From NCBI GenBank assembly GCA_029263455.1, contig JAJCXM010000008.1, positions 248,001-312,000 of the forward strand: a stretch of 64,000 nucleotides of DNA, written 5' to 3'. The notes under the pieces were generated by a model, which was not told where the DNA came from, did no database searches, and saw only the letters and a list, made by a program, of their open reading frames with translations. The position numbers and the translations under genes were made by a program. Source of the DNA: Holophagae bacterium. Its GTDB lineage: Bacteria > Acidobacteriota > Holophagae > Acanthopleuribacterales > Acanthopleuribacteraceae. Below are positions 6,280 through 21,544 of this stretch, piece by piece. The number at the start of each line of letters is the position of its first letter. Positions within the stretch are counted from its first letter, which is position 1.

Positions 6280-6332
6280 TAGCATTTAGGTCCATCCATC
6301 AGTGAGGCTTAGGCACATAACAGTGAGTGAAG

Positions 6333-6992
6333 ATGCGAATCCTATTGGTTGAAGATGATCGAATGATTGGTGAGAGTTTGCAAAAAGGTCTCGCTCACAA
6401 CGGCTATGCGATCGATTGGGTCAGGGACGCAGAGTCGGCTGAATTAGGGCTGTCGGCGCATAGCTACGACTTAATGTTGCTCGATATTGGGCTACCCGGG
6501 AAAAATGGGATTGTGCTCCTGAAAGAGCTGAGACAGAAAAAGTTCACCCTGCCGGTGTTAATGCTTACGGCACGCGATAGTGTGACCGATAAGGTTGTTG
6601 GTTTGGATGCCGGTGCTGATGATTACCTAGTAAAACCGTTTGATTTGGGCGAGCTAGAGGCCCGCATACGAGCGCTCATTAGGCGACACAATGGCCGAAG
6701 TGAACCATTGATGGTGGCGGGCAACATTTCGCTCAACCCATCTACACGAGAAATTTCTGTGGGTGATTGCAAGGCCTTACTCTCAACACGCGAATATGTG
6801 CTCATGGAGGCACTTATGGCTCGCCCTGGCGCTGTTCTTTCCACTAGTCAACTAGAAGACAGGCTATATGGCTGGCGTGACGAGGTGGAAAGCAACACGA
6901 TTGCTGTCCATGTTTATCAGTTACGCAAAAAACTCGGTAAGAGATGCATCATGAATGTCCGCGGTACCGGCTATAAGATCGGAGAAGCATGA
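6333..6992 (+). CDS. OmpR/PhoB-family response regulator (QseB-like)
   Basis: A 219-residue regulator. The receiver domain starts MRILLVEDD (acidic pocket), has the phosphoacceptor Asp in DLMLLDIGLPG near residue 51, and the conserved Lys in DDYLVKPFD. A C-terminal winged helix follows (LSTREYVLMEALMARPGAVLS, then NTIAVHVYQLRKKLG). ATG at 6333 is chosen over an in-frame GTG at 6327 because family members begin MRILLVEDD. Its stop overlaps the kinase start (ATGA), so the pair is translationally coupled. Confidence 0.93.
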   Translation: MRILLVEDDRMIGESLQKGLAHNGYAIDWVRDAESAELGLSAHSYDLMLLDIGLPGKNGIVLLKELRQKKFTLPVLMLTARDSVTDKVVGLDAGADDYLVKPFDLGELEARIRALIRRHNGRSEPLMVAGNISLNPSTREISVGDCKALLSTREYVLMEALMARPGAVLSTSQLEDRLYGWRDEVESNTIAVHVYQLRKKLGKRCIMNVRGTGYKIGEA

Positions 6993-8317
6993 AACATTCT
7001 ATACGTCGTCATTTGCTTACTTACCTGGCCTTGGCTTTGACGGTAAGTTCTGTGTTGATTGGTACCTTAACCTACAAGGTTGTGAGTGACGAAATCGAGG
7101 AATGGTTTGATGAGAACATGCGACAAGTGGCTCAGGCTTTGTCGGCTAAATGGGACCAGAACGCCATTTCCCAGACCTTGGTAGATGATCACAGAACCAT
7201 AACTCAGGAAGAAGTGTTTTTGATCCAAATTTGGGGAAAAGGCCAGTTGCCGATATACACGTCTCATCCTTCTTTAAGTGTCTCTCGTCACTTGGCTTCC
7301 GGTTTCGGGCAAACAAACCTGCAAGGGTCTACATGGCGCTACTACAGCCAAACAACCGATGGCGTCACAGTTCAGGTATCGCATCCATTATCCGAGCGTG
7401 AAGTAGCCAAGTGGGAGGTCGCCTCCAGGTTCCTTATTCCGCTGTTGTTACAGTTTCCTTTGCTTGGATTATTTATATGGATCACAGTCAGAAAAGGTTT
7501 AAAGCCGCTTGATGTGGTTTCAGCCGACATCGAAAAGCGGGGCTCAGACGCGATGCATCCATTGCCGTTTGAAGACATCCCTTCGGAAATCAGGCCACTG
7601 GTCAATGCCCTAAATGATCTTTTACAGCGGCTAGATGAAGCGCTACAGGCTCAACGCCGCTTTACCGCAGATGCAGCCCATGAGCTTCGCACACCTTTGA
7701 CGGCTGTTCAGTTACAACTTGATGTACTGAAGCGATGCCGATCTGAAGAGGAAACCGCGGATGCCATGGATAAGCTGAGCCGCGGGGTAAAGAGAAGCGT
7801 AGAGTTGGTGCGCCAATTATTGACGCTGGCCCGCCAGGATCCTGGATCAAACAAACAGGTAGATATCCAGGTTGATCTTGTGTCATTGGTCGAGGATCAA
7901 TTGAATCAATGTCGCGAAAGGGCGACCCAAAAAGGCATTGTAATGAGCTTCATGCATGCCAAATCACACGTTTCAATCATGGGAAACCCAAAGCCCCTAG
8001 GGATTATGCTAGAGAACCTTTTGGATAATTGTTTGCGCTACACGCCCGAACAGGGGCGTGTCGAAGTTAATCTATCAGAGCAAAAGGGCACGGTTGTTAT
8101 ACAGATTAGAGATAATGGACCAGGTATCCCTGAAAACGAAATGGCGCACGTCTTTGAGCGTTTCTATCGGGTCAATGGGACTGACGAACCGGGCAACGGC
8201 TTGGGCTTGGCGATTGTTAAGCAGGTTGCGGAACAACATGGAGCGACGATTATCTTAAGTGATGGTTTGGATGGACGAGGTTTAGCCGTAACCGTGACTT
8301 TTGAGGCCGTCAACTGA
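6989..8317 (+). CDS. sensor histidine kinase (QseC-like)
   Basis: A 442-residue membrane kinase. TM1 lies at about residues 10-30, a periplasmic sensor of about 115 residues follows, and TM2 is near 148-170. Next come a short HAMP-like linker, the H-box FTADAAHELRTPLTAVQ (His near residue 233), the N-box LLDNCLRY, DNGPGIP and NGLGLAIV of the ATPase domain. The short acidic periplasmic start EIEEWFDENM resembles QseC/PmrB-type kinases. It phosphorylates the regulator encoded immediately upstream. The signal is unknown. It converges on the Ser/Thr kinase gene ending at 8385. Confidence 0.93.
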   Translation: MKHSIRRHLLTYLALALTVSSVLIGTLTYKVVSDEIEEWFDENMRQVAQALSAKWDQNAISQTLVDDHRTITQEEVFLIQIWGKGQLPIYTSHPSLSVSRHLASGFGQTNLQGSTWRYYSQTTDGVTVQVSHPLSEREVAKWEVASRFLIPLLLQFPLLGLFIWITVRKGLKPLDVVSADIEKRGSDAMHPLPFEDIPSEIRPLVNALNDLLQRLDEALQAQRRFTADAAHELRTPLTAVQLQLDVLKRCRSEEETADAMDKLSRGVKRSVELVRQLLTLARQDPGSNKQVDIQVDLVSLVEDQLNQCRERATQKGIVMSFMHAKSHVSIMGNPKPLGIMLENLLDNCLRYTPEQGRVEVNLSEQKGTVVIQIRDNGPGIPENEMAHVFERFYRVNGTDEPGNGLGLAIVKQVAEQHGATIILSDGLDGRGLAVTVTFEAVN

Positions 8318-8384: not shown

Positions 8385-11300
8385 CTAAAGGTTCGCCGAT
8401 TTGAGTAAGGCTTGCACACGAAGGGCGTGTGTATTGGCCTGTGAATCTGGGCCACAACAATCCCGTAACTGACCAAAATATTTGCTAAACAGCATAGTCG
8501 CATCGACTTCGTTGCCCGACTCTGCCTTCAGTTCAGCCAAGACGATGGCGGCGTAAGCGATTCTCCAACTGGAGGGTGGATAAATCTTTTGAGCATGCTC
8601 AAACGCTTCTACGGCATATTCGAGTGCGTTTTCAAGATGACCGGCGGCTACTAGAACTTGGGCTGCTTCAAGTAAGGCGCGAACGTGGTATCGATCGCGC
8701 GATGTTAATGACCGCAGGCTGTGAATGGCTTGATTGACTGACACCACCGCCTCTTCGAGTTGATTAGCACGTAGGTGACTCTTGGCGATTTGAATACGTG
8801 AGTGAGCCAAATCACAGTGTTGTTGATCGAGGATAGTCTGGCGCAATTTCAATGCGGTTCGAGCGTGCGTGTCCGCCTGTTCCATCTTTCCCATGCCCAT
8901 CAGTGTGTTTGCCAGGTCGAAGTGGGCCTGTGCTTGGCTGGTGGCGGAATCCGCTTTTTCAGCGATTCGAATAGCCCGTCGTTGGTAGGTTTGGGCTTGC
9001 TCGAAAAGACCCTTATCAAAGGCAATTAAACCAAGATTGTTGGAAAGGGTGCCTGCATACGGATGATGCTCACCCAGAGTTTGATGTACGATCGTTAAAC
9101 TACGTTGTAATAAAGGTTCTGATTCGTTTAATTCACCCCGCATCCAATATAACGATCCCAAGTTATTGCAGACCATGGCTACCAACGGGTGGTTGGCACC
9201 GTGTAATGTTTCGAACTCATTTAAGGCTTGATCATATAGGGTTAAGGGGGTGTTGAAATCGCCACAGCGAACCATGACGGCAGCAAGGTTATTGCGCGAC
9301 ATGGCCACGTCTTGGTGACCCGGCCCAAAGTGCAAAAGCAATGCATTTAGGTTCTCACGATGAAAAGCGATGGCACCTTGAAAATCGCCCGTACGTTCCA
9401 GTAATATGCCCAAATTGTTTCGTAATGACAAAGTATCAGGATGTTGACTGCCAAGAATTAAGCTCGTGGTTTCGATGGCGTCGTGATACGCAGTGGTTGC
9501 TTCCTCGAAGCGGTCAAGTTTATCGAGTACCTGTGCCAGACCACCGGTAGCCCTAGCAACCAAAGGATGATTAGCACCATAAAGTTGGAAAAATCCTTCC
9601 AAGGCCCGTCTTGCATGAGGCTCGGCTTCGCGATAATTTCCGGCGGCCCAAAGCACGTCCACATAGTTTGAAAGCGCTTCGATGTGGTTCGCATGGTCTT
9701 CTCCGTAGATTTCGGCGCTTTGCTCAACGGCTTTTTCCACCAATTGCAGGCTTTCCTTCAGCTCTCCAGCCTGTGAAAGCGCGTGCGCAAGAGCTTGTGT
9801 GATAGAAGTGTTTACCAGGCCGCTTTGATCGACTGTTTCGTATGCATGACGTAGTTCCCTGATCGCGTCGCCACTCTTGCCTTGTCTGTCGAGGGCTGTT
9901 CCCAAGAGTTTACGGGCCAACGCTTCCGTAAGTGGGTCAGAAGCCAATTGAATCGTCGTCTGAGCGTGTTGAATAGCTTTATCGTGTTCGCCCTGATAAA
10001 CAAAGATACGACCCAGTTCAAGTCTTGCCCGCATGCTTAGATCAGAGGCATCATTGGCGTCCAATAAGACGATGGCTTTTTCGAGTACGGCTTGACCATC
10101 GTGGTAAAGACCGAGATTGCGGTAAGCGGTTCCAATGGAAATCAGTAATTCCGCGCTAGCGAGTGGGTTTTCATGTAATTGTGGCAGGATATCATTGACC
10201 GCTTCATCTACGATATTCTGGTACGAGCCAATGTTGTAACCGGGCGTTACTGGCGTCATCATTTCAAAAGAGCGCACCAAGAGATTTGAGACAGCGGAGG
10301 CTCGATCTCGCTCCAACTCCAACTGCTTCCGTTTGGCAACGCTCACCATCAGCGAAGTCACCCAAACAAGGGCGACCAGAACGAATGCAGATAACGACCA
10401 TTTGTGTCGTTGCATGCCTTTTAGGCAGCGATAGGTGAAATTACCAGATCGCGCTTTAACTGGTAAGCCATCTAGATAACGTCGAAGATCATCTGCCAGC
10501 CCAGAAGCGGAAGAGTAACGGTGGCGCGCATCAAAACGCAGACATTTGGCGGTGATTGCGTCTAAGTCACCCGTCAATTGACGCTTTAGAGAGTTTGCTG
10601 AAGTTGATCGCTGATGGGCGATTGCAGCAAGTTGACTCATGGGAATAGCCGCAAGTTTTTTGCTTGGCTCAAGCACTGGATGGTTTTTGAGTCGAAGAAC
10701 GGTTTCTGCTGGCACTTCGCCTTGGTGATGGTCCACATGGCTTCGCGTCAAGAGATCATAAAGTATCAGCCCTAATGAATAAACATCGGTGGCTGCAGAT
10801 GTTCTTAAACCGGCCAATTGCTCGGGACTGGCCCATTTTCGAGTGAGTTGTCTCGCGCCCGTGGTTGTGACCTGTTCATCAGATTCCATTAGTTTTGCGA
10901 TGCCGAAATCCAACACTTTGGTGACACCCTCAGGTGTAACCATGATATTGGACGGTTTCAAGTCTCGGTGTGCGATGAGTTGTTCGTGGGCGTGCTGAAC
11001 ACCGTCGCATACGTCGGCCATGAGCTGGATGCGCTGACGAATGGACAATTTAGCGGCATCACAATGTTCGGTTATCGGCTTGCCTTCAATGAGGTCCATA
11101 ACCAGATAGGGTGTTCCGTCCTGGGTCTGTCCCGCATCAAGTAAGCGACAAACGCTAGGATGATCAAGGTCGTGGAGGATTGTGCGTTCCTGTTCAAATC
11201 GCTTGAGTGAATGAGGCGCGTACAAAGCACCTCGTAACAACTTGACTGCGACGCGCTTTCCGTCTTGATTTGAGATGCCCATGAAAACGAGGCCAGAACC

Positions 11301-11591
11301 GCCGCTTCCAATCAATCGTAGCAGCCTAAACTCGCCCAGATCGCGGCCAATCCAGCGTTCAACTTCCATGCTTTCGCCCGTCAGAAATCGATCATCGTTT
11401 GCATCTTGGTTGAGTAAGAACTGCACCAGACGAGCGAGGCTAGGTGATGTTTTTGTCAAGCTCTCAAGTCGCTCGCTTCGTTGATCCGCACTAAGTTCAA
11501 TGAGCTCCACAAAATGGGTTCTTGCTTGTAGAAAAACTTCACGGTTATGGACTAGCTGCCGAAGATCGTCTTGGCTGGGGCGTTCGCTCAT
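8385..11591 (-). CDS. membrane serine/threonine protein kinase with C-terminal TPR array
   Basis: A 1068-residue PknB-type kinase. After ~85 residues the kinase domain runs to about 345. It has the glycine loop IGSGGSGLVF, VAVKLL with the ATP Lys, HRDLKPSNIM as catalytic loop and DFGIAKL as metal loop. One TM helix follows near 394-418. The rest is a long series of tetratricopeptide repeats of the TPR_10/12 type (motifs such as HPLVA.., NNLG.L), placed on the far side of the membrane if the kinase is cytoplasmic. ATG at 11591 is chosen because it overlaps the upstream sigma stop as ATGA; the ORF itself continues 17 codons further up. The arrangement predicts phosphorylation of the cotranscribed ECF sigma. 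Confidence 0.93.
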   Translation of the reverse strand: MSERPSQDDLRQLVHNREVFLQARTHFVELIELSADQRSERLESLTKTSPSLARLVQFLLNQDANDDRFLTGESMEVERWIGRDLGEFRLLRLIGSGGSGLVFMGISNQDGKRVAVKLLRGALYAPHSLKRFEQERTILHDLDHPSVCRLLDAGQTQDGTPYLVMDLIEGKPITEHCDAAKLSIRQRIQLMADVCDGVQHAHEQLIAHRDLKPSNIMVTPEGVTKVLDFGIAKLMESDEQVTTTGARQLTRKWASPEQLAGLRTSAATDVYSLGLILYDLLTRSHVDHHQGEVPAETVLRLKNHPVLEPSKKLAAIPMSQLAAIAHQRSTSANSLKRQLTGDLDAITAKCLRFDARHRYSSASGLADDLRRYLDGLPVKARSGNFTYRCLKGMQRHKWSLSAFVLVALVWVTSLMVSVAKRKQLELERDRASAVSNLLVRSFEMMTPVTPGYNIGSYQNIVDEAVNDILPQLHENPLASAELLISIGTAYRNLGLYHDGQAVLEKAIVLLDANDASDLSMRARLELGRIFVYQGEHDKAIQHAQTTIQLASDPLTEALARKLLGTALDRQGKSGDAIRELRHAYETVDQSGLVNTSITQALAHALSQAGELKESLQLVEKAVEQSAEIYGEDHANHIEALSNYVDVLWAAGNYREAEPHARRALEGFFQLYGANHPLVARATGGLAQVLDKLDRFEEATTAYHDAIETTSLILGSQHPDTLSLRNNLGILLERTGDFQGAIAFHRENLNALLLHFGPGHQDVAMSRNNLAAVMVRCGDFNTPLTLYDQALNEFETLHGANHPLVAMVCNNLGSLYWMRGELNESEPLLQRSLTIVHQTLGEHHPYAGTLSNNLGLIAFDKGLFEQAQTYQRRAIRIAEKADSATSQAQAHFDLANTLMGMGKMEQADTHARTALKLRQTILDQQHCDLAHSRIQIAKSHLRANQLEEAVVSVNQAIHSLRSLTSRDRYHVRALLEAAQVLVAAGHLENALEYAVEAFEHAQKIYPPSSWRIAYAAIVLAELKAESGNEVDATMLFSKYFGQLRDCCGPDSQANTHALRVQALLKSANL

Positions 11592-12148
11592 GGCTTGCTC
11601 AACATGAAACTGCTTTGCAGCCAGGCTCTGGCCCATCGCCATCGTCGAACGACGGTCGCACTCCCCAATCCCATCGCTTCTGCGGTTTCTTCGACCGTGA
11701 AACCTGCGAAATAACGTAATGAAACGATTAGTGCGGCTTCAGAGTCCAACAATTCTAATTTTGTAAGCCCGTCATTCAGCAAGATCAGGTCGTTCGCTTC
11801 GATCTCGGACATCTCAAGGCGTTGAGGTTTAATCGTGCGTTTATGGGCGCCTTTCAACCGAGCCCTGTCGATAAGTACGCGTCGCATGATGCCCGTAGCT
11901 AATGCCAGAAAGTGGCGTCGATCATTGACGTCGGGAATGGCTCCGCCGCTCATCCGCAGATACGCTTCGTGAACGATTTCAGTGGCTTGCATCGTACACG
12001 CGTATTCGCCGATTCGTTCGTGAATGGCGATTCTCTTTAAGTCACCGTACAGGAATTCAAAGACACGCCCCTCAGCATCACGGTCACCTTGTCGCCAAGC
12101 ACGTAGCAAATCAGTGACTGCTTCTTCTTTTTGCGGGGCGCTGATCAT
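11588..12148 (-). CDS. ECF-type RNA polymerase sigma factor (TIGR02999-like), kinase-linked
   Basis: A 186-residue ECF sigma factor. Region 2 contains CTMQATEIVHEAYLRM and RRHFLALATGIMRRVLIDRAR. Region 4 contains ALIVSLRYFAGFTVEETAEA followed by the recognition helix MGLGSATVVRRWRWARAWL. Where most ECF sigmas have acidic DAED in region 2.2, this one has QATE with Thr56, and no anti-sigma gene is adjacent. The four-base overlap with the Ser/Thr kinase gene suggests control by phosphorylation. ATG at 12148 (MISAPQ) is preferred over the ATG seven codons upstream because the domain starts close to it. It is divergent from the secreted repeat protein at 12350. Confidence 0.9.
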   Translation of the reverse strand: MISAPQKEEAVTDLLRAWRQGDRDAEGRVFEFLYGDLKRIAIHERIGEYACTMQATEIVHEAYLRMSGGAIPDVNDRRHFLALATGIMRRVLIDRARLKGAHKRTIKPQRLEMSEIEANDLILLNDGLTKLELLDSEAALIVSLRYFAGFTVEETAEAMGLGSATVVRRWRWARAWLQSSFMLSKP

Positions 12149-14630: not shown

Positions 14631-17600
14631 TCAATCTATGCGGGGTTCACCGCGACGTCTGGATTTGGCAAGATCGCCCGCGATACGAGGTAAGGTTACT
14701 TTGACGCTACAACCACCACGGGGACGCGCGCCTATTTGTATGGAGCCGTCCAACTCATTGACGATGTTGGCCACGTTGTGGAGTCCGAACCCTGCGTGGC
14801 CAGGCTTTCGGCTAAATCCGTAACGAAAAACGTCTTGAATGTCAGATTCTGGGATTCCAGGTCCGCGATCGGCTATTTTGAGTACAAATTCATGCTCTTG
14901 CGGAATCACAATCAATTTAAGTTCGCGAGCTTCAGCCTCGACGCCTTCCATGGCCTCAATCGCATTCTTTAGCAGTTCCGAAAGCAGTTGGTTCAGTTTT
15001 ATCTTTGACATGGTGCAATTTTCTTCAGCTGGGCATTGTATTTTTATTCGGATTTGATGGCTGTCAAGTTCGTTACGTAACAAGCTCACCGTGTCTTCGA
15101 TCACATTCAAGAGGTTGATCGGCTCCAGATGTAAGGGAACCATGCCGTAATGATGTTGAATACGAATCGTCTCTTGCAGGTCGCGCAGCCTCTCCAGCAG
15201 ATCCTTGATTTCATGGCCAATGAGTTCTTGGTTCAAGCTGAAATCGGTTCGAATGGAATCCAACTCTTCAAGGACCCAATCGTCGCTATTATTGCCCGGT
15301 CGGTTGATCCAGTTCCCCAAGCGGATCAGGTAGGACTCCAGGCGTAATAAGGGTGCATCATCAATCCTCTCATTGATTTTGAGCGCATGAATCGAGAATG
15401 CTTGCAGTTGTCGATTGACCTGTTTGAGAACACCATTGGCGATGTGCAGGATGCCTGCACGATGAGCGGCGTCGACAACTTTCCGGTTGGTTACCTCCAG
15501 CTCGTCGGTCTTGTCCTGCACTAATAAGGCCATCAACTGGTTACGGCGCCTTAGTTTTCTAACGCGCAGGGCATGGATGGCTGGAATGGACATAATCACA
15601 ATGAGCGCCATGAGTCCACGGAACCATTTGGTTTCGAAGAAGGGTGGGCGAATGCGAACCGGTACAGAAAGTTGTTTCTCTGACCAAATGCCATCGTTAT
15701 TGGTCGCACGGACGTGAAATACGTAGTTTTTATACGGTAAATGGCTGTAGGTAGCGAAACCTTCGTCTCGATGGTGCCACTGCTTGTCATAACCTTCCAA
15801 TTGGTATTGATAACGCAGATTCTTAGGGTGGCGATAATCGAGTGCCGCAAACTCCATCGTGAATTGATTGGTTAAGTGATCAAGATCGAAGGATATATCG
15901 TCTGTCATTCCCAACAAGCGCTCGTTTCCCAAGACTGTAAAAGACGTGAGCACGAGTGGTGGTGACCAGCTGCGTTTGATAACTTGATTGGGCAGAAAGC
16001 CATTTAGTCCGTTGATGCCGCCAAACAAAAATTCACCGTTGTTGCGGATGAACGCCGCGTTGTCATAAAAATCGTTGCCTTGTAGGCCGTCAAAATAGTC
16101 GTAAGACTCGATCACTATGTGACCGTCGTTGAGGTCTAATCGCTCCAAGCCAGCATTGGTAGAAAGCCAGAAAACTTGACCCTCTTCATGTTGGATGCTG
16201 TAGATCGTGTCGCCAACTAATCCCTGCTCGATCCCAATGGTGTAAAGAGGTTCATCTACACGATATCGTGCTAGCCCGTGAACAGTTCCAATCCATATGC
16301 CTTCAACTGGATCTTCAGCAAGGCATATGACCTTGTTTGGAGATAATTCTGTGGCCACCTTGATGGGCTCAGGTGTCAGCCGGTACACGCCTTGCTCTGT
16401 TCCAACCCATAACTTGGAATCCTGCGTCATCAGCATGCAATTGGTTAAGCGAGCTACGTCTCCTAATCCCTTTTCGACTGGAAATGCAACCTGACGAATG
16501 GATTGTAAGGAGGGGCTTACGAGATCGACACCAGCGCGGGTGCCCAGCAGCATGTCACCACTTGAGGTCGCTAAGATGGAATGGATGTAATCGCTTGAAA
16601 TGGAAATTTGATCTGCGTGAAACCGATAATGACGTACAGATTGCTTGTCAAAGTTAACGATATTGAGTCCGCCACTATAAGTGCCCACCCAGATATCACC
16701 AGAACTTGAACTTGCAATACTCAATATTTGGTTTTCGCTTAATGCTGGTTGACTGCCTTCGTGGAGGTGAACGTGTTTTCCATCATGTGAGAAACGATGT
16801 AGACCGGTTTGCGTGCCGACATATAGATTGCGCTGAAGATCTTCGTGAATGGCTTGGACACCTCGTATCTCGCCTGAATTTGGTGTGCCGTAAATCACAA
16901 ATTTGGGTGGATTAAGATCTAGTTTATTGATGCCATGGGTGAAGGTACCTATCCAAAGCAAGTTTGAGCGATCCGTGAATAACGAGGTAATGTCCGTATC
17001 GGATGGGCCATTGTTAGGTGAAGGTGTCCGCGGGAAATGCTTCACGGCATAGGTTTTACTGTCTAATTTCAGCAGGCCGCCCCGAAAAGTCCCTACCCAT
17101 ATCGAAGGTCCCGAATGGGTGATCGCATTTATCCAATCATCAGACATGTTTTCGTAACCCGTTAAGAAACGCCGGAAACCATCGCTTTCTAGCAAATTGA
17201 GCCCTTGAGTCGTGCCAACCCACAGTTGACCCTGAGCATCGGCATGGAGCGCGCGTACCTGGTTGTGACTTAGTGAACGTTCGTTGTCGGCATCATGCCT
17301 GTAAACGACAAACGAGTCGCTTTCAGGGATATACCGGTTTAACCCGTCAAGCGTCGCAATCCATAATTGGCCTTTACCGTCGATCGTGATGTCTCTAATC
17401 GTATTATTGCTAATGCTAGATGGGTCGAGGGGATCGTTGAGGTATCGTTCGAACTCAGTGTGCGTTTGGTTCAAGCGGTTCAGGCCCTCTCGTGTTCCGA
17501 CCCAAATCGAGCCACTCACATCCTCGGCCGTGCAGTAGACATACGAAAAACTAAGGGACTTCGGATTTGACGGATCGTGAAAAAAGCGTCTATTGGTTCC

Positions 17601-17921
17601 AGTCATAGGGTCAATACGGTTGAGACCATTAGCCGAGCTTGCCCATAGGTAGCCGGCCGAATCCACGTATAAGGATCTCACCTGATTGTCAGAAAGCGAC
17701 TCGGGATCATCCGCTAATCGTTGAATGACTTTGAAACCCAATCCATCGTATCGGTTGACGCCTCGATTAGTGGCAATCCAAATCACGCCCATCGCGTCTT
17801 GGGCGATGGACCAAATAGTGCTCTGTGATAAACCTTGTTCTGGACCGATGCGGTCAAACCGAGTGACGGCGGTTTGAGCCAAAACGTTCAGGGACATCAA
17901 GCAACACAAGAACTTATACAT
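14631..17921 (-). CDS. two-component-regulator-propeller sensor kinase, apparently lacking the phosphoacceptor His
   Basis: A 1096-residue protein: signal peptide (MYKFLCCLMSLNVLAQ), about 13-14 periplasmic propeller blades (repeated VGT..GLNR.. and L.ADAQGQLWVGT motifs) to ~residue 640, a Y_Y_Y-type beta domain (RYQYQLEGYDKQWHHRDEG) near 650-755, a TM near 765-787, then a kinase core. The ATPase lobe is intact (LLSELLKNAIEAM, DRGPGIP, GHAGFGLHNV). Aligned with the neighbouring kinase, the His of GLLHNLGN is replaced by Lys833 (GVLKQVNR). ATG at 17921 is chosen because the signal peptide starts there. It overlaps the upstream kinase gene by 8 bases. No response regulator is adjacent. Confidence 0.88.
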   Translation of the reverse strand: MYKFLCCLMSLNVLAQTAVTRFDRIGPEQGLSQSTIWSIAQDAMGVIWIATNRGVNRYDGLGFKVIQRLADDPESLSDNQVRSLYVDSAGYLWASSANGLNRIDPMTGTNRRFFHDPSNPKSLSFSYVYCTAEDVSGSIWVGTREGLNRLNQTHTEFERYLNDPLDPSSISNNTIRDITIDGKGQLWIATLDGLNRYIPESDSFVVYRHDADNERSLSHNQVRALHADAQGQLWVGTTQGLNLLESDGFRRFLTGYENMSDDWINAITHSGPSIWVGTFRGGLLKLDSKTYAVKHFPRTPSPNNGPSDTDITSLFTDRSNLLWIGTFTHGINKLDLNPPKFVIYGTPNSGEIRGVQAIHEDLQRNLYVGTQTGLHRFSHDGKHVHLHEGSQPALSENQILSIASSSSGDIWVGTYSGGLNIVNFDKQSVRHYRFHADQISISSDYIHSILATSSGDMLLGTRAGVDLVSPSLQSIRQVAFPVEKGLGDVARLTNCMLMTQDSKLWVGTEQGVYRLTPEPIKVATELSPNKVICLAEDPVEGIWIGTVHGLARYRVDEPLYTIGIEQGLVGDTIYSIQHEEGQVFWLSTNAGLERLDLNDGHIVIESYDYFDGLQGNDFYDNAAFIRNNGEFLFGGINGLNGFLPNQVIKRSWSPPLVLTSFTVLGNERLLGMTDDISFDLDHLTNQFTMEFAALDYRHPKNLRYQYQLEGYDKQWHHRDEGFATYSHLPYKNYVFHVRATNNDGIWSEKQLSVPVRIRPPFFETKWFRGLMALIVIMSIPAIHALRVRKLRRRNQLMALLVQDKTDELEVTNRKVVDAAHRAGILHIANGVLKQVNRQLQAFSIHALKINERIDDAPLLRLESYLIRLGNWINRPGNNSDDWVLEELDSIRTDFSLNQELIGHEIKDLLERLRDLQETIRIQHHYGMVPLHLEPINLLNVIEDTVSLLRNELDSHQIRIKIQCPAEENCTMSKIKLNQLLSELLKNAIEAMEGVEAEARELKLIVIPQEHEFVLKIADRGPGIPESDIQDVFRYGFSRKPGHAGFGLHNVANIVNELDGSIQIGARPRGGCSVKVTLPRIAGDLAKSRRRGEPRID

Positions 17922-20900
17922 CGTTGCTCGATTCTTGTTCGAATACTGGCGCTCTAATTTCAAAAATAGAGCCTTTGCCAACGCCGTCGCTATGAACGTC
18001 TATAGAGCCGCCCATCTCGGTCATCGAGATGCGGCACGAATAGAGCCCAAACCCGTGACCAGAAGATTTTGTGGAGAACCCATAGCTGTAAATTTCTTCG
18101 AGCAGATGGGGCGATATACCGCAGCCATTATCGTAGATGGCGATGACAACTTCGTTGTTCTCCTGTTCGATGACAATCCGAATGCAACCGCCCCCCTGCG
18201 GGTGTTGGATATGAATTGCATCAGCCGCGTTCTTGATTAAGTTCGCAAGAATGTGGATCATTTTGTAAGGGTTCAAACGGCAGGTTGTGACCGGCGAGAA
18301 TTCACGGATGACGTCCAAACCACGTTTGTTGAAGCTGTACTCAAACATCTGTAACGTATCCTCAACCAGTTTACCTATTTCAACAGCCTCCACGTATTCG
18401 TATTCTTGAGCATAATCTTGCTCGGTCTGAATGGCTTTCAGCATAAGGGCTACGCGCTCTTCAATATCCTTGCCCTCCACTCGTAAGCGATCATTTTCTA
18501 GTCGGATAATTTTGGCTGATTCCGATAAGAAGACCGGCAATCTGGAACCTTTTGTGTCTTTTGTGAGGAAATCGTGCAAATTTGTGCGGTTCTTTTCAGC
18601 TAATTCACTGACGCGAGTGATCATGGTTGATTTGGAAGTTTGAATAATGCGCACCATTTCTTCGGCAGAAATAATGACGCTGGTCATGATGTTTCCCAAG
18701 TTGTGCAAAAGGCCCGTTACCATTTCTCCGATGCCTGCCTTTTGGGCCTCTTCGATGAGCTGCTGATGGCTTTCTGTTAAGGATTCGCTGCGCTCGGCGA
18801 TAGCCATACTTAGACGACGATGTTGGCTACTTTCGGCACGTACATGCCATGCATGCAGTGACAAGATAGAGGCAATCAAGAAGAGCAGCGCAACAACGGC
18901 GACCCAGGCTGCTTGCCACCAAGGCGGTAACACCCGAATCCGAAGTTCAGCAGGCACTTCGCCCCAAAGACCGTCGTTATTGGTTGCGCGTACCCTCAAG
19001 GTATAGAGCCCGCCCTGTAAGTTAGTAAAGACAGCGTGTCTATGTTTACCGACACGCTGCCAGGCTTCATCCATCGATCCTACCAGCTGATACTCGTAGA
19101 GGTTCTTGCCCGGCGCCGTGTGCTCGAGTGCCGAGAACTCAAACGATATGTATGTTTCTCGATGTGAAATAACAAGTTCACCTAGATCGTTTAGACGTTG
19201 ACCAATGGGTTGTAAGTTCTCAAAAATACGAAAAGAGGTAAACCTCACTTTTGGACGGTTCGGATTAAGATTCAATAGGTTCGGGTCGAATTTTGAATAT
19301 CCGTTTGTGCCTCCAAAATAGACGAATTGTTCGTCCTGAGTGACGGAACTTTGTAAGAATTCGTTGCTCTGTAGACCGTCTCGATAGTCGTAGTGCAGGT
19401 TTTGACCGTCTTTTCTCAATCTGGTTAATCCGCGATTTGAGCTCACCCAGATATCACCACCTGCACCCTTTGCTAGACCGTGAACAGTGGAGTCCCGTAG
19501 CCGGGAACCTTCAAAGAGATGTTCAAAAGGAGGTACCTTCTTGCGTAATATGTTCAAACCAAAACTAGTCCCTACCCAGAGATGCCCGTCGTCGTCCTCC
19601 AGGATAGCGGTTACTTCATTGTGCGAAATGGATGCTGAATTCGCGTTGGGCCGGAAGATTTGCACTGATTCATTGTTGGGGTCATAACGGTAAAGACCGC
19701 CATTGGTACCAACCCAAAATATGCCCGCCGAATCTATACGAAAAGCGAGGATACGTCGTTCAGAAACGCTTTGCTGTGGCGTGAAGATAGGAACTTCTGT
19801 GGCAATGCCGGTAAGTTCATCAAACAGGTGGAGGCCCGCTCGCGAACCAACGTAGATTTGGCCTTGCGCGTCTTTAACGAGCACTTTTACGATATCATGT
19901 GGTAGTCCGCCCACCTTGTCTGGCTCTTTTTGATAGTGGCGAATCTGACGGCTTCCCTCACTGTAAATATTGAGGCCTGAAGCATAGGTTCCAATCCAGA
20001 TTTGACCCTTGTCGTCTTCTAGTAAAGACAGTATCTGATTCCCGCTCAAACGCTCGGAAAGTGTTGCCTTGTCATGGAAATGAGTTATCGTGCCTGAATG
20101 CGTTTGGTGGATGACGCCGTTTTGCGTGCCTAACCAAAGTCCGTCTCGCGAATCGCGTAACAGGGCTGTCGTTGAATCAGCATTGACGCCAGCGACAGGA
20201 TGCATAAAGTAACTCTTGAATTTCCGCGGTTTCAGGTCCAGTTTTGCAAGGCCGGCTTTGTAAGTGCCGATCCATAGCAAATCGGATTGCCCAAGTTTTA
20301 GACTTAACAAATTGTTAGACGGCAATCCCCCGTGAATGATGTCTTGCCGATAGCCGTGAATTTCACCGCTTCGTCGGTTTAAGCATCGGATACCATCTTC
20401 GCGTGTCGCAACCCAAAGGTTTCCCTTCCGGTCTCGCGCTAAAGCGTTGACCCAATAAGGGGAAGCTAATAGGTCATCTTCCGACATCGGTATGCGCGTA
20501 AATCGCTGTTGGCCTTTCTCAAAACGATATAGACCTGTTGAACTGCCAACGTAGATACCCAAATTGTCGCCGTGTAATGATTTGATTTCGCCTGGTCCAA
20601 GCGAATCCGAGTTGTTTACGTCGTGTTTGAACAAATCGAGCTGGTCATTTCTTGCGTCCCAGCGGTGAACGCCCGAGTCTGTTCCAATCCACACGTGACC
20701 TGATGGCGCAACGAAAATAGCCCGAACTTGGTCATCTAGTAAGGAATTGGGAGGCTTGTCCGTTTGCATGACGGTCTGGACATGGCCCTGCTGATCTACT
20801 TTGGCGACGCCAGAGCGCGTACCAACCCATACCTGCCCCTCGTCGTCGGCTTCCAGACAAGTGATGTAATTTCCTGGCAGTGAGTCGTCGTTGCCCGCTT

Positions 20901-21312
20901 GGTAGCGAAAATTGGTGCATGTCTCAGTTTCAGTATTGAATTTGCTCAAACCATTGGATGTGCCAACCCATAGAGTCCGAGGCGCTCGAAACAGGAGCGC
21001 TCTTACCACGTTGCCGGCTATTGAAGTAGGGCCCCCGTCGGCACGAAAGACTTTGAATTGATAGCCGTCAAATCGATTCAAACCGTGAGATGTGGCCACC
21101 CAGACAAACCCAGATTGGTCCTGTTCAATCGCCCAAATCGTACCTTCCGAAAGTCCCGACTCTATTTGAATTGCTTCGATTGGGGCGCGTTCAATCTGAG
21201 CCAACGTGTAGGAACCCGCAAACACGAGCAGGGTTAGTAGTGCAATTGAACGATATGTGCGATGCAAACGTAATTCCATCCGGTTCACACTAAATGTGGG
21301 GAATCCGGGCAT
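17914..21312 (-). CDS. two-component-regulator-propeller sensor histidine kinase
   Basis: A 1132-residue sensor. It has a signal segment (RSIALLTLLVFAGSYTLAQ), two seven-bladed regulator propellers with WVGT..GLNRFD-type blades, a Y_Y_Y beta domain near 690-780, a TM near 797-820 and a coiled coil. The kinase core has GLLHNLGNIMTSV (His870), the N-box ILANLIKNAADAI, DNGCGIS and GHGFGLYSC. The LHN.GN phosphoacceptor type occurs in orphan kinases of several phyla. The start at 21312 has a ribosome site (AAAGG) about 7 bases upstream; the ORF extends about 60 further codons of unlikely coding sequence. It heads an operon with the His-less kinase; its receiver partner is not encoded nearby. Confidence 0.9.
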   Translation of the reverse strand: MPGFPTFSVNRMELRLHRTYRSIALLTLLVFAGSYTLAQIERAPIEAIQIESGLSEGTIWAIEQDQSGFVWVATSHGLNRFDGYQFKVFRADGGPTSIAGNVVRALLFRAPRTLWVGTSNGLSKFNTETETCTNFRYQAGNDDSLPGNYITCLEADDEGQVWVGTRSGVAKVDQQGHVQTVMQTDKPPNSLLDDQVRAIFVAPSGHVWIGTDSGVHRWDARNDQLDLFKHDVNNSDSLGPGEIKSLHGDNLGIYVGSSTGLYRFEKGQQRFTRIPMSEDDLLASPYWVNALARDRKGNLWVATREDGIRCLNRRSGEIHGYRQDIIHGGLPSNNLLSLKLGQSDLLWIGTYKAGLAKLDLKPRKFKSYFMHPVAGVNADSTTALLRDSRDGLWLGTQNGVIHQTHSGTITHFHDKATLSERLSGNQILSLLEDDKGQIWIGTYASGLNIYSEGSRQIRHYQKEPDKVGGLPHDIVKVLVKDAQGQIYVGSRAGLHLFDELTGIATEVPIFTPQQSVSERRILAFRIDSAGIFWVGTNGGLYRYDPNNESVQIFRPNANSASISHNEVTAILEDDDGHLWVGTSFGLNILRKKVPPFEHLFEGSRLRDSTVHGLAKGAGGDIWVSSNRGLTRLRKDGQNLHYDYRDGLQSNEFLQSSVTQDEQFVYFGGTNGYSKFDPNLLNLNPNRPKVRFTSFRIFENLQPIGQRLNDLGELVISHRETYISFEFSALEHTAPGKNLYEYQLVGSMDEAWQRVGKHRHAVFTNLQGGLYTLRVRATNNDGLWGEVPAELRIRVLPPWWQAAWVAVVALLFLIASILSLHAWHVRAESSQHRRLSMAIAERSESLTESHQQLIEEAQKAGIGEMVTGLLHNLGNIMTSVIISAEEMVRIIQTSKSTMITRVSELAEKNRTNLHDFLTKDTKGSRLPVFLSESAKIIRLENDRLRVEGKDIEERVALMLKAIQTEQDYAQEYEYVEAVEIGKLVEDTLQMFEYSFNKRGLDVIREFSPVTTCRLNPYKMIHILANLIKNAADAIHIQHPQGGGCIRIVIEQENNEVVIAIYDNGCGISPHLLEEIYSYGFSTKSSGHGFGLYSCRISMTEMGGSIDVHSDGVGKGSIFEIRAPVFEQESSNDV

Positions 21313-21544
21313 GACGGACCTTTCTAGATTTGTGTAGCAGGAGATATTAGGCAACGGGATGTTGTTGTCAATTATATCGACCAATTTCGCACAGCAGGTT
21401 AAACAAACTTGCCCGTCTGACCTTTCTTGTGTGAGGTTTTTTCTCACATGTTGCCAAAAATTCTCGCATTGATTTTCAGCCACGAACAATTAAATAGTTT
21501 AAAACTAGTTGTTTAGGTAGACCGTTCATTTGGCTTGAAAATTG

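Follow-up and report, generated by a model that had tools for sequence, protein, structure and literature searches.

Why would a membrane sensor kinase keep a complete ATP-binding site and lack the histidine that should carry the phosphate, directly beside a paralogue in which that histidine is present? The question is raised by two overlapping genes, here called a and b, in the window (the whole 64,000-nucleotide stretch of Holophagae DNA analyzed; Table 1). In order, the product of a comprises a signal-peptide-like N-terminus, a Reg_prop β-propeller, a Y_Y_Y domain, one TM segment, a coiled coil, a degenerate DHp and HATPase_c; the start, TM segment and coiled coil are putative, as read from the sequence. 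Pfam matches to Reg_prop (134 bits), Y_Y_Y (55.6 bits) and HATPase_c (65.3 bits) all exceed the cut-off. The same three domains are above cut-off in b, which likewise has a periplasmic-type propeller and a membrane segment and whose HATPase_c is intact (75.7 bits), and the two proteins are paralogues over their full length (29% identity, 1103 columns, BLASTP E 2e-144). The 8-base overlap makes translational coupling of a to b likely. The most likely answer, judging from the comparisons below, is that a serves as an ATP-binding subunit without an acceptor, joined with b in a heteromer in which only the histidine of b would be phosphorylated. Annotation pipelines would probably label both proteins active sensor kinases.

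Table 1. Positions of the features discussed; coordinates refer to the window unless a locus is given.
Feature	Coordinates	Strand	Remarks
Gene a	14631..17921	minus	1096 aa; ATG at 17921, stop at 14631
Gene b	17914..21489	minus	propeller kinase paralogous to a; HNLGN; 1191 aa if counted from TTG, but the real start could be further downstream
a/b overlap ATGTATAA	17914..17921	minus	8 bases; start codon of a within the end of b
Lys833 codon (AAA) of a	15423..15425	minus	phosphoacceptor position by alignment and model; opposite His929 of b
KQVNR of a	15411..15425	minus	replaces family motif HNxGN (multiple alignment)
His826 codon (ILHIA) of a	15444..15446	minus	out of register with the acceptor column
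His929 codon of b	18703..18705	minus	predicted acceptor, computed from the a/b alignment
First DHp helix of a, predicted	15357..15524	minus	model residues 2-57; AlphaFold2 block-mean pLDDT about 61-79
Second DHp helix of a, predicted	15141..15284	minus	model residues 82-129; AlphaFold2
CA (HATPase_c) domain of a	14685..15002	minus	Pfam PF02518, E 8.1e-18
N-box Asn986 of a	14964..14966	minus	invariant in 21 proteins
G1 box DRGPG of a	14856..14870	minus	21-protein alignment
G2 box GFGL of a	14781..14792	minus	21-protein alignment
343-aa His-less protein	L212:8161-9192		source genome (G000), contig C22; orthologue in L140/L213

The acceptor position of a

Because Pfam HisKA matches neither a nor b, the acceptor position was located from their alignment and from other anchors. 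The DHp motif aligns without a gap between b AGIGEMVTGLLHNLGN and a AGILHIANGVLKQVNR, and it is the entire HNxGN motif, beyond the histidine alone, that is gone from a. The acceptor column is also ungapped in an alignment of 21 proteins, 14 of which carry His there. The family profile puts the His of HNxGN on the HE motif of ZraS and FixL; this match is weak by itself (3 and 11 bits), but it is collinear with a strong CA match.

An AlphaFold2 model of the DHp-CA part of a (mean pLDDT 77.6) has Lys833 as its residue 35. Structural alignment of ten HK853 chains with this model gave a start offset of 225, constant or nearly so (model to HK853: 27 to 252, 30 to 255, 23 to 248, 20 to 245 and 19 to 244, with the row for 2c2a one residue off); for other kinases, such as DivL and CpxA, the start is shifted by one to two residues. 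At offset 225, Lys833 falls on His260 of HK853, which is the known phosphoacceptor and for which an H260A mutant entry is among the chains, assuming no gap from the first aligned residue to residue 35, along one helix.

By these alignments and the predicted structure, Lys833 is the residue that occupies the phosphoacceptor position of a, and the DHp of a lacks the acceptor His of an autophosphorylating histidine kinase. The sequence-only reading had assigned Lys833 to this position and had set aside the His of ILHIA as out of register. Both assignments agree with the pairwise and 21-protein alignments and with the model, which places Lys833, not the ILHIA His, on His260; the numbering of that His as 828, however, has to be corrected to 826. 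His826 is replaced by Q in the paralogue on contig C39 and by E in the orthologues of three genomes from other genera. Register and lack of conservation thus rule it out as an acceptor.

Conserved pairing, joint descent and selection

Five a-type proteins are found, two in the source genome (G000) and one each in three genomes of other genera of the family (G003, G005 and G006), and the residues at their acceptor sites are K, N, R, R and R. Each of the five accompanies a b-type HN(I/L)GN kinase on the same strand. The second such pair of the source genome, on contig C39, reads HNLGN then NQVTC; the pairs of the other three genomes combine a b-type HNIGN with an a-type RQIK. The b and a genes overlap in the source genome and have about two genes between them in G003, G005 and G006; in G005, these encode a Ser/Thr kinase with TPR repeats (L070:6812-9544) and an outer-membrane-like protein. 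A Ser/Thr kinase with TPR repeats is also encoded near the a/b pair in the window, at 8385-11642. Within the genus there is a separate pair, here h/g (loci L032 and L073), with HNIGN then GQV(Q/R)D and thus Gly at the site: GQVQD on contig C8 of the source genome, as its third pair, and GQVRD in G001, of the same genus.

Since the relatives carry N, R, R, R or G, a one-off mutation or a sequencing error in a is ruled out. To judge from these sequences, the loss of the histidine is old and maintained and does not come down to a single mutation; the single His-to-Lys exchange of the earlier reading becomes the loss of a whole motif, with K, N, R or G at its head. Moreover, since four related genomes have conserved this pairing of two genes, a is probably a dedicated partner subunit of b, and a broken gene is less likely.

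How unusual is such a loss? A census of this DHp type in the genomes of the family, which takes in every strong match in G000 and G001 and is partial in G003-G006, has 9 of 132 rows (a few of them duplicates) without His at the acceptor column: five a-type proteins, two g-type proteins and two orthologues of a 343-aa membrane-anchored protein. His is present there in about 120 of the 130 related kinases examined. HNxGN-type kinases are greatly expanded in G003-G006, with 84-139 matches per genome at E ≤ 1e-15. In the source genome, tandem pairs of this kinase type number three, and each joins a His-plus to a His-less member; the chance of this is about 2% if 4 of 22 labels are assigned at random, a figure of supporting value only because two of the three pairs are related. 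A search of 297 genomes across the phylum with an a-type profile returned nothing at E ≤ 1e-60 outside the genus; it says little on other families, as only two family genomes with matches were sampled. A contig scan with full-length a matched only Bacteroidales propellers.

The trees of a and b mirror each other, ((window, C39),(G003,(G005,G006))), and this shared branching order indicates that the pair was inherited, and once duplicated, as a unit. The nine His-less proteins form three clades. A tree that unites a and g is weakly rejected (AU p 0.042), and one that unites all nine is borderline and not clearly rejected (p 0.060); on the clades and these values we set aside a single origin for all of them. 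A sister relationship of a and b is allowed (p 0.417), and a could thus have arisen from b by tandem duplication.

The two halves of the kinase core have diverged differently. For G005/G003, the DHp difference is 0.51 in a vs 0.28 in b; further comparisons give 0.53 vs 0.28, the paralogues in the source genome 0.57 vs 0.44, and g vs h 0.43 vs 0.19, and the bootstrap intervals of the His-less vs partner difference exclude zero in these wider comparisons. The corresponding CA differences are equal or nearly so, 0.34 vs 0.33, 0.32 vs 0.30, 0.52 vs 0.46 and, for g vs h, 0.38 vs 0.38. With DHp differing more in the His-less proteins and CA equally, the phosphate-carrying part is relaxed and the ATP-binding part is not. 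In the closest pair, G005/G006, the DHp of a is not faster (0.17 vs 0.13). For these two genomes, dN/dS of a is 0.11 overall and 0.06 in CA, values that are rough because dS is high, near saturation. They show lasting purifying selection on a.

Proposed use of the retained ATP site

What, then, is the ATP site of a protein without an acceptor for? The boxes N, G1 and G2, which had been described as intact, are present in a, and the N, the D-x-G-x-G, the G and K before the lid and the GxGL are invariant over the 21 proteins (columns N188, D220, G222, G224, G237, K241, G246, G248 and L249); the N, G1 and G2 residues are kept in all seven paired His-less proteins. Retention of this domain favors a use of its ATP, either in trans-phosphorylation or in setting a conformation. 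The pseudokinase partnering its neighbor, as proposed from the sequence, accordingly survives as an acceptor-less partner, supported by pairing, joint duplication, repeated loss and the ATP site, but the term "pseudokinase" may not fit a protein whose catalytic ATPase half looks intact.

We propose the following. The a and b proteins would be co-expressed from their overlapping genes and assemble into a heteromer, most likely as a DHp heterodimer, with a separate periplasmic signal read by each propeller. Both CA domains would bind ATP, with the phosphate carried only by His929 of b and handed to a response regulator that is presumably encoded elsewhere. No response regulator adjoins the a/b pair; the nearest seen in the window (6327-6992) adjoins its own HisKA kinase (6989-8317). 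The CA of a would most likely phosphorylate the histidine of b in trans, which would be why ATP binding is kept. Output would then depend on whether b is paired with itself or with a, and an a:a dimer would give none.

That a phosphorylates b in trans is the use of its ATP that we prefer, at a little short of even confidence, from the sequence comparisons. The loss of the acceptor motif, the conservation of the pair and the retained ATP site are shown, and they support it. Against it, the DHps of a and b have diverged, with about 20% identity over DHp and CA; the DHp of a is no faster than that of b in G005/G006; and two genes or so separate b and a in three of the genomes. Furthermore, if kinases of this type autophosphorylate in cis, the CA of a could not serve b. 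It is tempting, if more speculative, to see here a conserved class of two-propeller kinases that are obligately asymmetric, the acceptor coming from one subunit and an ATPase and a second input from the other, with at least two separate losses of the acceptor in one family. The usual view of histidine kinases is that of symmetric homodimers. A pair of transmembrane kinases that is naturally asymmetric and conserved, has lost the acceptor in more than one lineage and has kept the ATPase allows a direct test, in nature, of cis vs trans phosphorylation and of acceptor-less subunits as a means of signal integration in bacteria.

The strongest alternative, which we consider rather unlikely, is an allosteric one, in the manner of DivL or NifL: a would bind b or another regulator and tune it through a conformation set by the nucleotide occupancy of its CA, with no phosphotransfer by a. 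DivL, with Tyr at the acceptor, acts without kinase activity to modulate CckA (PMC4211667; PMC9491836) and is a structural neighbor of the a model (Z 20.6), and the GHKL domain of NifL senses ADP/ATP without kinase activity (PMC11509896). Sub-threshold matches to NifL occur in the CA of 4 of 5 His-less proteins tested (55-84 bits, cut-off 242); for a, the NifL model TIGR02938 scores 68.5 bits, below the NCBIfam cut-off of 242.45. However, the CA of a fits the active kinases AtoS, ZraS and PnpS, among many, about equally; NifL similarity fails as a sign of His loss, the His-plus kinase L077 matching NifL as well and the G005 a-type protein not. Further, the CA of DivL is reported dispensable, whereas that of a is as constrained as its active partner's.

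Less probable still is that a acts as an antagonist, as RetS does, sequestering b in non-productive heterodimers and lowering its output when its own propeller is engaged. Overlapping genes and paralogous DHps would allow such heterodimers, and RetS/GacS, as summarized in PMC9491836, is a case of one sensor kinase controlling another by hetero-oligomerization; an antagonist, however, would have no need of a full ATP site constrained as tightly as that of b. It is very improbable that another residue of a (the Lys, Arg or Asn at the site, His826, or a QH where the second DHp helix ends) accepts the phosphate. All five a-type proteins share this QH pair (alignment position H125), but it also occurs in His-plus kinases, e.g., L079, and lies at the predicted far end of its helix; the residue at the site varies among K, N and R, His826 is not conserved, and in the G-type pair the site offers no side chain that could be modified. 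Finally, we give almost no credence to a as a decaying pseudogene, for which the lost motif and the faster DHp divergence in the wider comparisons might speak, since the conservation data contradict it: the 1096-aa frame and those of all relatives are intact, dN/dS is low, the ATP site is whole and the pairing is conserved across genera.

Known systems and other relatives

Among the known systems closest to the acceptor-less partner that we favor is DivL of Caulobacter crescentus, in which the acceptor His is replaced by Tyr, or by Ala in one relative, the other kinase boxes are kept, and the protein is conserved across species (PMC4211667). Like a, DivL is a full, conserved and functional DHp-CA kinase without the acceptor; it differs in its PAS sensors, conserved Tyr and reportedly dispensable CA, whereas a has a propeller (and no match to Pfam PAS), K, N, R or G at the site in its group, a constrained CA and an adjoining paralogous His-plus kinase. 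In CheA3/CheA4 of Rhodobacter sphaeroides, an acceptor-less kinase phosphorylates its partner's His (PMC3591291), as proposed for a. These are, however, chemotaxis CheA proteins of a cytoplasmic cluster with whole domains missing, and CheA3 has no catalytic domain of its own, whereas b keeps one.

ChrS/HrrS of Corynebacterium is a further case of one sensor kinase acting on another, with heterodimers reported (PMC9491836); the ChrS pseudokinase variant, a mutant evolved in the laboratory, has kept its His and has a broken CA, opposite to the situation in a. RetS, which acts on GacS, is a hybrid kinase. NifL is kinase-like and signals by conformation with nucleotide bound in its GHKL domain (PMC11509896); unlike a, it senses through a flavin PAS domain, targets the transcription factor NifA and has no paired kinase. 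Other Reg_prop/Y_Y_Y sensor kinases share the order of a (propeller, Y_Y_Y, TM segment, kinase core), from which a differs by its HNxGN-type DHp and absent acceptor. On this comparison, none of DivL, CheA3/CheA4, ChrS/HrrS, RetS/GacS and NifL combines a propeller sensor, a tandem paralogous partner, variable acceptor replacement and a retained ATPase. A literature search that excluded most subscription journals found nothing on such a pair, on this kinase family or on propeller kinases without an acceptor.

The 343-aa protein of the census is kinase-like and has no propeller; it has Lys at the acceptor and has lost the G1 box, it is conserved in two genomes, and no paired kinase lies beside it in the 17-kb stretch read. 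With acceptor and G1 both lost, it has the look that would be expected of a pure pseudokinase. Close to the second His-plus/His-less pair, L032:3066-6455 encodes a propeller/Y_Y_Y protein whose cytoplasmic output, as read from its residues, is like a eukaryotic-type Ser/Thr kinase. Four other propeller/Y_Y_Y sensors of the source genome (L004, L005, L021 and L025) appear, by eye, to end in one PP2C/SpoIIE-like phosphatase and three GGDEF domains.
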